From: a virus
Length of the DNA stretch: 64,000 nt
Virus record (IMG/VR): IMGVR_UViG_3300008261_000075
Coordinates: 45,387 to 109,386 of that record
Reading direction: 5' to 3' (one strand)
Shown here: positions 10,357 to 45,398 of the stretch, piece after piece
How positions within the stretch are numbered: position 1 is the stretch's first letter
Layout: each line of letters starts with the position of its first letter
Notes under the pieces: generated by a model
Databases searched by the model: none
What the model was told of the DNA's origin: nothing
The model's input: the letters and a program-made list of their open reading frames with translations, nothing else
Program-made: the position numbers and the translations under genes

Positions 10357-11037
10357 TTAACGTGGTTTCTTTGTACCCTGATCATCTTTAAATGCGCCTT
10401 TAAGTACTGTAGTCTGTGTTAGACTAGAGTGTGCCATAATACCACGGTTTTCACAACAGCCGTGTGTGGCTTGAATGTATACTGCTACGTTTTCTGAGTT
10501 GGTTGCTTTTTGGATTTCCCTAGCAATGTCATTACAAAGTTCCTCCTGGAGAGTACCTCTACGGGCACACCACTGAGCGATCCTTGTATACTTGCTAAGT
10601 CCGATGAGTTTCTCAGCCGCAATAATACCAATATAAGCAACGCCAGCAACGGGTTGGTGATGATGGCTACACATACTGCGAAGCTCACTACGAACAACCA
10701 ACATACCTTGATAACGGTCTGTCGAGTCATTTGGAAACGCGGTTGCGTCTGGTGCTGGTTCATATCTTCCTGCCATTATTTCATTAAAGTACATTTTAGC
10801 AAGACGTCTTGCTGTACCTTTGCTGTTAGGATCAGTTTCTCGATCAATCAACAGGGTGTCTAATACTTGTTCAAATGCTGTTGTTGCTTCGTTGATTAAA
10901 GAATCTTTTTCAACATCGCTAATGTATTCGCTGATATTGTCGCCAGCCCAGAAACGTTTGTTATTTTGTTTGAGCCTGTTGCGGATAACCTGGCTAAGAG
11001 GTCGTCCGTCTTCTTCTTTATAATGTAGTTCTGACAT
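10357..11037 (-). CDS. folE: GTP cyclohydrolase I FolE
   Basis: This 226-residue protein contains the zinc-site motif MCSHHHQP (C123, H126), GLSKYTRIAQWCARR and the second zinc motif HGCCENRG (C194 aligns with the usual HxC). It converts GTP to 7,8-dihydroneopterin triphosphate, the first step to both folate and 7-deazaguanines. With queD, queE and a dpdA-like gene nearby, the deazaguanine route is the more likely use. A plausible promoter lies upstream (11079-11106). Confidence 0.93.
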   Translation of the reverse strand: MSELHYKEEDGRPLSQVIRNRLKQNNKRFWAGDNISEYISDVEKDSLINEATTAFEQVLDTLLIDRETDPNSKGTARRLAKMYFNEIMAGRYEPAPDATAFPNDSTDRYQGMLVVRSELRSMCSHHHQPVAGVAYIGIIAAEKLIGLSKYTRIAQWCARRGTLQEELCNDIAREIQKATNSENVAVYIQATHGCCENRGIMAHSSLTQTTVLKGAFKDDQGTKKPR

Positions 11038-15830: not shown

Positions 15831-15890
15831 TTAATATTTGATAAATGAACCATTTTCTCCGTCTTCGGAGACCTCAATCCAAACCTCACG
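15831..15890 (-). pseudogene. 3' relic of a second, divergent queD
   Basis: Reading the minus strand, 19 codons plus stop encode REVWIEVSEDGENGSFIKY. This matches the C-terminus of the intact QueD at 17433-17855 (REVWIEVSEDGENGALIKF) at 16 of 19 residues. I count 45 of 60 identical bases, with most differences at third positions, so this was a diverged functional homologue rather than a fresh duplicate. Everything upstream of Arg is gone; the homing endonuclease on the other strand starts 17 bases away. Confidence 0.8.
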
Positions 15891-15906
15891 GCTAGAGAGA
15901 TAAGTT

Positions 15907-16503
15907 ATGCCTATACTGACTACCACTAATGTTAATTATACTTGTTTTTTGTGCGGAAGTCAAGCCTTCTACATAAGTGTGAACTCCAAACAGATGCGTT
16001 GCGTTGAAAAAATTACCCAATGTCCGGGCCACGCTAAGAAGGCCGAAGCCTCTCGACAGGCACGAATGAGTAAAGCGGATAGAATCAAACATATGAAAAC
16101 TATGAGCGAACGAGGAAATGCCAGTCTCAAGGAACTTCATACTGATGCTAATTGGCGTAGACAAAAAGGACACAATATTTCCAAGGCTAAATCTACCATT
16201 CCTATCGAACAGCGTCCTCTCTGGGAAGCATACGAAAACATTGTTGATAGAATTACAAGAGATAGTTGGATATATCATAATGATAAAATTAATCCTTTAG
16301 GGCTACCGCGGGGAACTGAATACGAGTTGGATCACAAATATAGCAAACATCAAGGTTTCCTAAATAATGTGCCGCCCGAATTAATCGGGCATTATTCAAA
16401 TCTTCAAATGATTTCACGGCATTCCAATCGCACAAAGTATAATAAATGTTCCATTACTTTGGAAAAACTTCTTCAACTTCAACAGGTCGAAAAACTGGTG
16501 TAG
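15907..16503 (+). CDS. HNH homing endonuclease
   Basis: This 198-residue protein is on the plus strand among minus-strand genes. It has an N-terminal zinc-ribbon-like CFLCGSQ...RCVEK...CPGH, a basic middle (SRQARMSKADRIKHMKTM) and an HNH-type core YELDHKYSKHQGF, then GHYSNLQMISRHSNRTKYN. Free-standing endonucleases of this kind spread by cutting genomes that lack them. It abuts a queD relic, and its last 50 bases overlap the end of the convergent gene at 16454-16657, both signs of recent insertion. A GAGAG site precedes the ATG. Confidence 0.85.
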   Translation: MPILTTTNVNYTCFLCGSQAFYISVNSKQMRCVEKITQCPGHAKKAEASRQARMSKADRIKHMKTMSERGNASLKELHTDANWRRQKGHNISKAKSTIPIEQRPLWEAYENIVDRITRDSWIYHNDKINPLGLPRGTEYELDHKYSKHQGFLNNVPPELIGHYSNLQMISRHSNRTKYNKCSITLEKLLQLQQVEKLV

Positions 16504-16657
16504 ATTTTGACATTCTTACAAACTCTAAATTATTAACTGAGAGTGTGTCTAATGTGCCGCGATAGCGTTCAATGCTTACTTTGCCGTTATTTTCAATAAC
16601 ATAGAAAAACTGATCAGTAGCACCACCGTCTATTTGTTGTTTAAAATATTCGTTCAT
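16454..16657 (-). CDS. Small hypothetical phage protein
   Basis: This 67-residue protein has a beta-rich middle (QFFYVIENNGKVSIERYRG) and an N-terminal KQQIDGG stretch. Function is unknown. Its last 16 or so codons lie antisense to the end of the homing endonuclease, so its C-terminus may have been changed by that insertion. It is coupled to the upstream gene by an ATGA overlap. Confidence 0.62.
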   Translation of the reverse strand: MNEYFKQQIDGGATDQFFYVIENNGKVSIERYRGTLDTLSVNNLEFVRMSKSTPVFRPVEVEEVFPK

Positions 16658-16881
16658 TCTTCAACTCCGAAATGTTGTTTAATCTCCGCCATACATTGTG
16701 TGCCACCATTCAACCAAGTATCAACTGATTCGGGAACAGGATCACTGATAACTTGTTCGCAACATCCTAAACATTCCTTTACAATCAACTCGGCGAACTT
16801 TTCTTTACTGAAGACGAGTTCTCCATCATATGGCACAAGACTCTGTGCGGCAAACTTTTCCAACATAGGTATCTTTTTCAT
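16654..16881 (-). CDS. Small conserved phage protein
   Basis: This 75-residue protein contains FSKEKFAELIVKECLGCCEQV, a motif I recognise from short hypotheticals common in T4-like marine phages (KFAELIVxEC), and a C-terminal AEIKQHFGVEE helix. Function is unknown. It overlaps both neighbours by 4 bases. Confidence 0.75.
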   Translation of the reverse strand: MKKIPMLEKFAAQSLVPYDGELVFSKEKFAELIVKECLGCCEQVISDPVPESVDTWLNGGTQCMAEIKQHFGVEE

Positions 16882-17123
16882 TCTTTGTAAACCTTTGTAG
16901 TTTTTTCAAATCCAATATAGGTTGTTTCAGTAATATCTTTACCAAGCAAGTTTTTGATTTTAGGATCATTCCAACAATCTTCGTCAATCATAATATTTTT
17001 AGTAAGACGCATTTTACTGAGTATGTAGATAACTTCTTCCAGTGTAGTCACTTGAGACCAGTCCAATGTCTTGTATCTGTTAGTTATTGGTTCTGGCGGT
17101 AATCGCTTAAACAGATTCCACAT
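16878..17123 (-). CDS. Small hypothetical phage protein
   Basis: This 81-residue protein begins MWNLFKRLPPEPITNRYKTL and has a helix LEEVIYILSKMRLTKNIMID, then an acidic and Lys-rich end. No motif is recognised. It is packed between neighbours with one- and four-base overlaps. Confidence 0.65.
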   Translation of the reverse strand: MWNLFKRLPPEPITNRYKTLDWSQVTTLEEVIYILSKMRLTKNIMIDEDCWNDPKIKNLLGKDITETTYIGFEKTTKVYKE

Positions 17124-17431
17124 TACACATTCCCCAATCCTACTCTACTATAACCCAGTTCTGATTTAACTTCTCGCTCAATGTTTTGAGTCTTATGCCG
17201 CCAGTTGATACCCCAAGTGGTAATAAACTCAATAGCATCACTATCAAGATTACACTCAACATAGCCCATATTGCCCCAACGGCGATTTTCTGGATCTGCC
17301 AAGCACCACGCTTCTAACTCTGCCCGTTGCTCTCCACCATAGTGCGACATCTCAAAACAATATTTAAACTTGTTCTTAGAATGAGGAGGTGGCATCTGGC
17401 GAATAGTAGTTCGGGGCAAAGGCTTAGACAT
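17123..17431 (-). CDS. Small conserved phage protein
   Basis: This 102-residue protein opens with a Pro-rich basic leader (SKPLPRTTIRQMPPPHSKNK). It then has FKYCFEMSHYGGEQRAELEA, Trp-containing segments and a C-terminal helix. Function is unknown. It lies one base after queD, so it should be expressed with it. Confidence 0.66.
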   Translation of the reverse strand: MSKPLPRTTIRQMPPPHSKNKFKYCFEMSHYGGEQRAELEAWCLADPENRRWGNMGYVECNLDSDAIEFITTWGINWRHKTQNIEREVKSELGYSRVGLGNV

Positions 17432-17432
17432 A

Positions 17433-17855
17433 TTAGAACTTAATTAGAGCACCATTTTCGCCGTCTTCTGACACTTCGATCCAAACTTCTCGTCCTGGGT
17501 GTTTTGCGGCAATCTGTTCATACAAATCTTCTGCCATCATCTCACAGGATTTATAGTCTAACTGGAGTGTTCCTTGACTATACAGATTTTCTAACCAGCG
17601 TTTAAATTGAATAAATTCAATCGCCCGGTCTGAATGTTCTACGGAAATCCAAACTTTAAAGTGGAAGATGTGACGATGCGGATATCCTAGAAAACTTACA
17701 TCGTACTCATCACCTGTAGCAAGTGCTGGATCTGTAAGTGCGGCTGGATATTTGTGCATACCTTCTTTCTGAAAGGTAACCCAAATCATTTTGTTAGGGC
17801 GGATATCTTGTTTAATAATCATAGGATTTAAATTTTCTATTTTACCAACTATCAT
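17433..17855 (-). CDS. queD: QueD-like 6-carboxytetrahydropterin synthase
   Basis: This 140-residue protein of the QueD/PTPS type is predicted to convert dihydroneopterin triphosphate to 6-carboxytetrahydropterin, the QueE substrate. The visible His cluster PHRHIFHFKVW is the candidate zinc site, with DYKSCEMMAEDLY and the C-terminal VWIEVSEDGENG (catalytic-glutamate region) further on. The zinc motif spacing differs from enterobacterial QueD, so it belongs to a divergent phage branch. A homologous 3' relic lies 1.6 kb away, next to the homing endonuclease. It is coupled to the next upstream gene by a 4-base overlap. Confidence 0.8.
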   Translation of the reverse strand: MIVGKIENLNPMIIKQDIRPNKMIWVTFQKEGMHKYPAALTDPALATGDEYDVSFLGYPHRHIFHFKVWISVEHSDRAIEFIQFKRWLENLYSQGTLQLDYKSCEMMAEDLYEQIAAKHPGREVWIEVSEDGENGALIKF

Positions 17856-18370: not shown

Positions 18371-18620
18371 CTTTTTTGTCCTTTGCTTGCTCGTACCGCC
18401 TAAATAATCTAGTAACATCTTCCATTTGTGTTTGAAATATATGTGGACTAGCTTCACAGACCTGCATCATATCCCAATCACTGGGATAGTGGCGTAATAC
18501 ACCTCTAGCTTGACTGCGTATAATTGCAGGAACCTTAGGAGTCTTTTGCGGATCCATTAGTTCTTGCAAAAACTGGCGAGCCATTTTTACTGCACGATAT
18601 CTTTCGTCGGGGAGTGTCAT
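18360..18620 (-). CDS. BPSL0761-like small protein
   Basis: This 86-residue protein resembles the BPSL0761 family, short proteins of unknown function with the pattern LPDERYRAVKMARQFLQEL and ARGVLRHYPSDWDM. The Arg-rich helix could contact nucleic acid. It is nested between the dpdA-like gene (4-base overlap upstream) and the queD-adjacent gene (11-base overlap), so it is translated with the modification genes. Confidence 0.68.
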   Translation of the reverse strand: MTLPDERYRAVKMARQFLQELMDPQKTPKVPAIIRSQARGVLRHYPSDWDMMQVCEASPHIFQTQMEDVTRLFRRYEQAKDKKDEA

Positions 18621-20317
18621 TCTTTTACCTGTAATTCTAGCTGGTCTAATAATTGTTCTTCTTCTTCACTAAATTCTTCGGAGTGCTCTAATTGTACAGT
18701 GGTTTCTTCTTCAAAGTCAAACAGATTGGCAAATTGTGTTGCCGCGTTAACTGTTTTCTTACCAGTAGCACCACGTGTGCCAATAATAGACTGCCAAAAT
18801 TTATCAAACGACTCAATGATCAATTCTGCATCTGCACGATTAGGTGTAGAGAAAATGGCATCAACTACATCTCTAAAATAGACACGATCGAACTTTTCTT
18901 GTACTAGCATAGCCGGAACCTTGCCGTTATCGTATGCTTGATTAGCACGTTGAACAGCGTTCAAGTGAGCATATACGTTATGACCCATTTGAATAGCATA
19001 GCTAAACGAATCCCATGACGTCCTGCCTTCCTTACCAATCTTATTTAGGTCGCCCGGATTGTATATACAAACATCTTTTATTTGGCACTGATCGATAAGG
19101 GGACTTGATTCAAAGTTTGCAAAAACTCTGTCTTGGATGACTGCGTCTTTGAACAGTCTTGTGTCTGTTGCGTACTTTTTGTCATCAGCAGATGGCACCA
19201 TGCGATAGACCCATTTTGTTCTATCTTCGAGTTCAGTTTGGATGTAGATTTGTCCGTTTGCTGTTGCCAGAAACGGTGAGGCGCAGTCAAAAGATATGGT
19301 AAAGTTTTCATTATGGTATTTTCTCACTGCTCGTTGAATATCAGTTAATAAAGTTGCCCACTCTAACTTAGAGGTGCCCAGGAAGTGCATCCAGTCTTGA
19401 TGACCCTTTTCAAGGAGTCCGTCAAACTTCAATGCTACTAATCTTTTTAATACCAAATGGATGTCACACATATTCTGCCCACCCATAGCCCAGCCGTTGA
19501 ACGCCTTGTCGCCGTAGACTTTAGGATCGCAAAAGTCTTTCATCTTACTATACCAATCATCGGCTTGTTTGTGTGTTTCACCTTGCAGAACATTTAAGAA
19601 CTTACAAGCACCAGTGCGATGTTTGATCCAATACTCGTTGTTGTATTTGGTTGCTTCTACAGCTTGATCATATGATTCGATCCCCGTAGCTTTACGCCCA
19701 ACAGGACTACGTTCAACCCACGCAGGAATATCAAGCACCATGCCGTAATCCATAAGTGTATCCATCCAGGTTAATACCTGTGTACGCTTTTTATGAGCCG
19801 CATCTAGTCTTGCTTGATACTGCTTTACATGATCAACCTTAGTGTATTTAAGGTTGCCTTTCTTATCCATAGCATGATTACCAGTGGGGTCAATGACTGG
19901 TACTAGTTCAATACCTTTGGCAACAGCTTCAGCCATCATAGCCTTTACTTCTGGCCCAGTTGGATCTCGCCACTCACCTTCCCAAACACCTTTACCAATC
20001 TGGAATCCGCCTGAGTCGCCTAGTACCCAACTTGTACTACGGTCTCTATTACGGAACATATCTTCACTATCGTCTTTCTTAGTAAGATCTAAGTTAGCGT
20101 GACCTGCTGAATAGAGACACCACTTATAGTAGAATTCTCCCTTTTCAGGTTCTAAATAGTTTAGACTTTCCATACCAGCACCCCACACGCTAGGAATACG
20201 TGCAGGATCTACATAATTTCCGTGCCGTTGCTTGCCGATAAATGTAGCATAGAATCCTGAAGTTGCTGGCAAAAACACAGCATAGTCGTGTTGAGTAGCT
20301 GTTAAGTTTTTATTCAT
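18617..20317 (-). CDS. dpdA: DpdA-like DNA 7-deazaguanine transglycosylase
   Basis: This 566-residue protein is related to tRNA-guanine transglycosylase. Catalytic landmarks are GDSGGFQIG at residues 100-108 (D101 equals the TGT base-binding/catalytic Asp), GWAMGG at 275-280 (substrate loop) and ISFDCASPF at 341-349 (D344 equals the nucleophile position). No TGT-type zinc-binding Cys cluster is visible, and the protein is longer than bacterial TGT, as in phage DpdA enzymes. DpdA swaps guanine in DNA for a 7-deazaguanine base, protecting phage DNA from host nucleases. folE, queD and queE are nearby. Confidence 0.88.
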   Translation of the reverse strand: MNKNLTATQHDYAVFLPATSGFYATFIGKQRHGNYVDPARIPSVWGAGMESLNYLEPEKGEFYYKWCLYSAGHANLDLTKKDDSEDMFRNRDRSTSWVLGDSGGFQIGKGVWEGEWRDPTGPEVKAMMAEAVAKGIELVPVIDPTGNHAMDKKGNLKYTKVDHVKQYQARLDAAHKKRTQVLTWMDTLMDYGMVLDIPAWVERSPVGRKATGIESYDQAVEATKYNNEYWIKHRTGACKFLNVLQGETHKQADDWYSKMKDFCDPKVYGDKAFNGWAMGGQNMCDIHLVLKRLVALKFDGLLEKGHQDWMHFLGTSKLEWATLLTDIQRAVRKYHNENFTISFDCASPFLATANGQIYIQTELEDRTKWVYRMVPSADDKKYATDTRLFKDAVIQDRVFANFESSPLIDQCQIKDVCIYNPGDLNKIGKEGRTSWDSFSYAIQMGHNVYAHLNAVQRANQAYDNGKVPAMLVQEKFDRVYFRDVVDAIFSTPNRADAELIIESFDKFWQSIIGTRGATGKKTVNAATQFANLFDFEEETTVQLEHSEEFSEEEEQLLDQLELQVKE

Positions 20318-45385: not shown

Positions 45386-45398
45386 TCAATTAAAATAT

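Follow-up and report, generated by a model that had tools for sequence, protein, structure and literature searches.

The locus studied here lies in a stretch of 64,000 nucleotides of viral DNA (the window; positions 45,387 to 109,386 of the IMG/VR record IMGVR_UViG_3300008261_000075). Its features are collected in Table 1. On the minus strand, a full-length queD gene is followed by four small ORFs, then by an HNH endonuclease gene on the opposite strand, and finally by a short stub encoding REVWIEVSEDGENGSFIKY and a TAA stop, which corresponds to the 19 C-terminal residues of QueD. Only 13 bases separate the stop of the stub from the ATG (15817) of the next minus-strand gene. Frame and coordinates of this C-terminus, as given in an initial annotation of the window, were borne out, as was the start of a plus-strand HNH ORF nearby. 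When the window queD was searched with tblastn against its own 109,386-base record, only two matches were obtained, queD itself and the stub (80% over amino acids 121-140, E 1.4e-5). A covariance model of the region built from 100 phages lacking the proposed mobile element (element-free phages) gave 81 bits for the stub (E 9.5e-19) but 46 bits for the intact queD. Because of these scores, a chance match of the stub is excluded. By the same measure the stub is the ordinary form of queD, and the intact gene the unusual one.

Table 1. Features of the queD locus and its pathway context in the window
Feature	Position	Strand	Remarks
GTP cyclohydrolase I gene (folE)	10366-10878		First pathway step
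Displaced 3' stub of the resident queD	15831..15890	-	Last 19 codons and stop; proposed right homology arm
Conserved hairpin 2 (TCTCCG-AAGA-CGGAGA)	15856..15871	-	Stub retains it; intact queD has lost it
Junction, 29 bases missing relative to three near-identical contigs	15892..15893	.	Lost: HNH leader with TATAAATA and first stub codons
HNH gene for a proposed queD-targeting homing endonuclease of 198 aa	15907..16503	+	Invariant DH...N...N residues
Four small cargo ORFs (67, 75, 81 and 102 aa) between the intact queD and the HNH gene	16454..17431	-	
Putatively element-borne, recoded queD 3' half (codons about 70-140)	17433..17650	-	DNA identity pattern
Resident-type queD 5' half (codons 1 to about 70)	17651..17855	-	DNA identity pattern

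The stub is longer than the window suggests. Three sister contigs (L003-L005), otherwise near-identical to the window (a base-by-base comparison over 6 kb showed one mismatch), carry 29 extra bases between stub and HNH gene. The length initially annotated, 19 codons and a stop, is thus right for the window, but the sister contigs indicate a stub of 23 codons, KYPGREVWIEVSEDGENGSFIKY. Since the window lacks these 29 bases, L003 was used in the comparisons. Relative to L003-L005, the window has deletions of 39, 67 and 29 bases at 10366, 14713 and 15892/15893. The first affects folE at its end, the second the glycosyltransferase-like G306 at its C-terminus, and the third the HNH leader. These deletions are possibly assembly artefacts.

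The QueD identity, at first merely assumed, is supported by the predicted structure (pLDDT 86), which has a QueD/6-pyruvoyl-tetrahydropterin synthase tunnelling fold (T-fold). Its best PDB matches are E. coli QueD and 6-pyruvoyl-tetrahydropterin synthases (4ntk and PTPS 2dj6, E about 1e-5, TM 0.6-0.7). No Pfam or NCBIfam profile matched, including the PTPS profile PF01242, and "QueD-like T-fold protein" is therefore the safe name. From its context, the gene is likely to have a role in 7-deazaguanine DNA modification. A 566-aa protein encoded at 18617-20317 on the minus strand displays tRNA-guanine transglycosylase-like motifs by eye and has no Pfam match; lying near folE and the QueD-like gene, it likely belongs with them to a 7-deazaguanine DNA-modification cluster.

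Residues D142 H143, N165 and N174 of the HNH protein are invariant in 12 relatives, and relatives with 41-45% identity contain NUMOD3 (PF07460, E 3e-8), a DNA-binding motif of homing endonucleases. T-even phages hold relatives at 26-30% identity, and a pattern scan of bacterial and archaeal genomes found none there. Profile searches of the HNH protein, queD and their neighbours against Pfam and NCBIfam gave nothing useful, and the HNH profile matched no PDB sequence. Two results count against a homing function: the window HNH protein itself has no Pfam match in the profile search, and its fold model is poor (pLDDT 65) and retrieves no PDB match in a fold search. The leader common to the HNH genes contains a TATAAATA-like (T4 late promoter-type) box and, after it, (g)atagagagataagttATG; it lies at 5774-5803 in L003 and at the same place in L006-L014 and L312-L318, and in the window the box was lost through the 29-base deletion. 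Scanning with this leader returned four unrelated chance matches beyond the known loci. The cargo between queD and the HNH gene (744-1110 in L006, 8586-9085 in L007) varies among element-bearing phages, although they have the HNH gene and the queD 3' half in common.

Loci of relatives were collected from IMG/VR through queD or through the downstream gene G306. The gene order queD-G80-G306 was found in all 148 element-free loci with a full queD, and in every one the distance from the queD stop to the homologous part of G80 is 12-83 bp. In 148 of 148 the stub bases form the end of an intact queD standing at this place; the observation that would have refuted the initial annotation, these bases with no queD here, was not made. 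In the window, as in many relatives, the queD start overlaps the end of G180. Because element-free loci show both the queD-G80 order and this overlap, the two outer junctions in the window, that of G180 with the queD start and that of the queD end with G80, are ancestral, and the novelty lies between them, where small ORFs and the opposite-strand HNH gene separate the stub from its gene. The cultured Sinorhizobium phage Phosso has, in a row, DNA polymerase, clamp, glycosylase, queD-like and glycosyltransferase genes and no endonuclease.

The stub had been read in the initial annotation as the relic of a second queD. Decay of an ancient paralogue at this site could account for the conservation at the protein level and the third-base changes between stub and intact gene, yet it is very improbable: the ancestral locus has one queD with the stub at its exact 3' end, two copies were seen in no relative without the HNH gene, and the stub, which in two lineages shares 98.6-100% identity with living alleles, has not decayed. 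A decayed second queD is likewise contradicted by the 148 element-free loci. Over 69 bp, identity of the stub to element-free alleles is 98.6% in L003, 100% in L007 and 92.8% in L006, compared with 73-77% between these stubs and the intact queD of their own genomes (72.5% in L003). The stub is the old 3' end of the resident gene, nearly undecayed.

The diverged and foreign part is the end of the intact gene; the stub is neither. The queD 3' half is 87-96% identical in DNA to that of other element-bearing phages, and codons 86-140 are at most 77% identical to element-free phages; compared with L027, 23 synonymous and 13 other codon changes occur among 55 codons. In L003, codons 12-50 share 93-95% identity with the element-free L136, L107 and L027 versus 77% with the element-bearing L006; codons 86-117 share 90-95% with L006 and L007 versus 73% or less with any element-free phage. 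The same switch of affinity occurs in the queD genes of L006 and L007, and in site-pattern tests (Fisher p 4e-7 to 3e-14) the best breakpoint of this reversal falls at codons 67-73 in each of the three lineages. L089 is the nearest native both for the L006 stub and for codons 12-50 of the L006 queD. The three element-bearing phages form one branch in the 3' tree (support 89), and the element label needs three separate changes in the 5' tree. An AU test on the short, 177-base 5' alignment did not reject a single element-bearing clade (p 0.31), which counts against homing, although the outcome of the site-pattern tests is clear. Judged by these affinities, the intact queD is a chimera with a resident-like 5' half and a 3' half that arrived with the element. 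It had been regarded as a separate copy, but it occupies the 5' position of the resident, with its start overlapping G180, and combines a resident half with an element half. The earlier proposal that a diverged queD was replaced here together with endonuclease entry holds in that a queD was present, was interrupted and had its body replaced; what does not hold is the divergence of the stub. In L312-L317 and L346, the full-length queD beside the HNH gene is of a strongly diverged type, about 40% identical and shorter, ending in SEDGESDGIIEF..., and is a candidate for a long-term resistant allele.

Introns often carry such endonucleases, and a 3' "exon" downstream of an endonuclease could recall a group I intron or an intein in queD whose host exon was lost. 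The probability of this is close to nil: no intron family of Rfam matches, the HNH gene runs opposite to queD, and the queD upstream is complete and has a stop codon of its own.

The HNH gene and the stub travel together. As a block they are 95-97% identical among L003, L006 and L007, and the similarity ends sharply at the stop codon of the stub; the surroundings are 65-78% identical or unalignable, save for the queD 3' half and a single cargo gene in L007. Presence is patchy, with 148 empty loci as against HNH-stub blocks that have moved between dissimilar phages. Repeated homing into different recipients would be expected to produce such a pattern.

Relatives of the HNH gene were gathered by scans with the protein and by alignments, down to 39% identity. 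The 26 related HNH loci found all sit at the 3' end of a full-length queD. Of the two roles first suggested for the modification gene, homing target or hitch-hiker, this favours the target. Where cargo is absent, the 3' ends of queD and the HNH gene face each other and in most cases overlap or abut. A queD remnant is found on the far side, before G80, in most of the 26 loci. It has 23 codons in the group of the window and about 19 in L334; in L346 a full diverged queD and the HNH gene are followed by about 60 in-frame codons directly before G80, of a queD type quite different from the intact gene. In L009-L013, L312-L317 and L341 the stub is reduced to 4-6 codons (SIVI, QSVTI, QSIAI or NNIAI and a stop), which match native queD tails such as RPxQSIVI and a stop. 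A shuffle test of a simple tail motif gave 5 of 12 observed versus 0.06 expected, a result that serves as a guide only because the motif was picked after viewing the sequences. L008, L014 and L318 have no clear stub, and this counts against homing.

Illegitimate or homeologous recombination between two phages could also produce a partial queD duplication, with the HNH gene as a passenger that landed nearby, and the coincidence of stub and block ends with gene ends is what modular exchange gives. Against this stand the association of the stub with this HNH family (no second queD 3' end without it among the 298 loci scanned), the presence at queD of at least five HNH lineages with stubs of varied lengths and types, and the use of the same left breakpoint three times. 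We consider such recombination improbable.

The native end of queD also shows extreme synonymous conservation. This was measured in an unbiased set of loci, fetched by the neighbouring gene. In this set, codons 118-119 and 123-135 of element-free queD are almost frozen at synonymous sites, with a synonymous conservation of 0.92 in the best 12-codon window versus a mean of 0.60 (0/20,000 permutations). The conserved codons (118-135) fold into two hairpins. In hairpin 1, the stem is closed by a GNRA-type loop, G-N-G-A, in which N falls on the free third position of an Arg codon, and base 3 of codon 121 covaries with base 1 of codon 124 (C-G 62, U-A 33, U-G 5, C-A 0). Cramer V is 0.90 for this pair and 0.0-0.21 for the two variable bases lying between, and all four combinations of the other bases of codon 121 occur in both pair states. 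Mere haplotype linkage was rejected as a source of the covariation because the bases between the pair are unlinked. In L082 a double change preserves a pair of hairpin 2 at the cost of a glycine. The stubs keep hairpin 2 and most of hairpin 1, and the chimeric queD has neither. No Rfam family matched the region.

The hairpins are possibly a cis-acting RNA of the G80-G306 genes. The stub might accordingly have been retained as a working RNA leader for the downstream G80-G306 that the element tolerates or exploits. The synonymous conservation, the covariation of hairpin 1 and the intactness of hairpin 2 in the stubs are in keeping with this, but element lineages at other queD types retain 4-6 codons or none, and an Rfam match is missing. 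We regard this role as a serious though somewhat doubtful possibility; it would complement homing and not replace it. The hairpins may be the reason why the queD 3' end is conserved enough to act as a general landing arm, and why a stub is kept. A more elaborate version, in which the element exploits the RNA of its target, with the hairpins freezing the queD end as a right arm conserved across diverse phages, the stub continuing as RNA leader and the replacement queD being free for recoding that would put it beyond the enzyme, is tentative and rather unlikely.

The locus is very probably a homing element of a target-end-replacement type, which would cut queD, exchange its 3' half and displace the old end. 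Gene order, the chimera, the origin of the stub, the transfer of the HNH-stub block between dissimilar phages and its recurrence are documented at the level of genome comparison. In the proposed cycle, when an element-free phage co-infects, its queD would be cut by the HNH enzyme at some point from about codon 67 to codon 118. One candidate site is near codon 70, at the chimera boundary as in WHO elements and just after the conserved HRHIFHF segment; the alternative is near codon 117/118, at the left edge of the stub. Donor-templated repair would then bring in the diverged queD 3' half, the cargo ORFs and the HNH gene, recombining on the left through the shared queD 5' half (breakpoint around codons 67-73) and on the right through the stub. 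The product would be a full-length chimeric queD with recipient 5' and donor 3' halves, then the cargo and HNH gene, then the old 3' end of the recipient as the new stub. The recoded 3' half would presumably no longer be cut. The right homology arm is only about 70 bp, which counts against this model.

The closest parallel is offered by the WHO elements of Torulaspora and Lachancea yeasts, which target FBA1 and use a fragment of the target gene as recombination site (Coughlan et al., 2020; PMC7282813). As in WHO, the endonuclease gene here stands between a full-length target and a 3' fragment of it, the full-length target is a chimera of recipient 5' and donor 3' parts, and the fragment is the former 3' end of the recipient (PMC7282813). 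Unlike WHO, which encodes an intein/HO-related protein with a zinc finger, the enzyme is of the HNH type and NUMOD3-related; the host is a bacterial virus, the target likely a DNA-modification gene, the endonuclease on the opposite strand, the cargo ORFs variable and the stub shorter (4-60 codons). By its sequence and organization the element works like WHO but is not a WHO element, because its enzyme is HNH-type with NUMOD3-containing relatives. A different enzyme family with the same strategy suggests convergence.

mORF elements with C-terminal duplication are known from Allomyces atp6 and from Glomus atp6, atp9, cox2 and nad3, where native C-termini are 91-98% identical to relatives and inserted C-termini 64-81% (PMC3630166). 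There too the native C-terminus is displaced downstream of the endonuclease ORF (here 93-100% versus about 71-77%), but those elements are mitochondrial, encode a LAGLIDADG enzyme in the example cited and are partly in frame with the host gene, whereas the present one is HNH-encoding, on the opposite strand and in a phage. The free-standing seg and mob homing endonucleases of T4-like phages act through double-strand-break repair with co-conversion of flanks and, like the present gene, are intergenic and adjoin their target gene (reviewed in PMC2988022); a retained target-gene fragment or chimeric target is not described in that review, where "fragment" and "duplicat" are absent. In HEG islands, nuclease genes likewise lie at exchange boundaries between phages, but these are paired nucleases moving large modules with no discrete ends, and 3'-end replacement was not found described in the available part of that report (PMC10448857). 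We found no report of target-end replacement in bacterial viruses in the openly available full-text papers searched, and the present element is likely the first phage case.

Target-end replacement, described in yeast nuclear genes and fungal mitochondria, would thus also operate in bacterial viruses with another enzyme family. It would explain how a useful gene can harbour a selfish one and stay functional, with neither intron nor intein, and by what route divergent 3' halves of a likely DNA-modification gene pass from phage to phage. Short gene "ruins" beside endonucleases may then be read as used landing pads.
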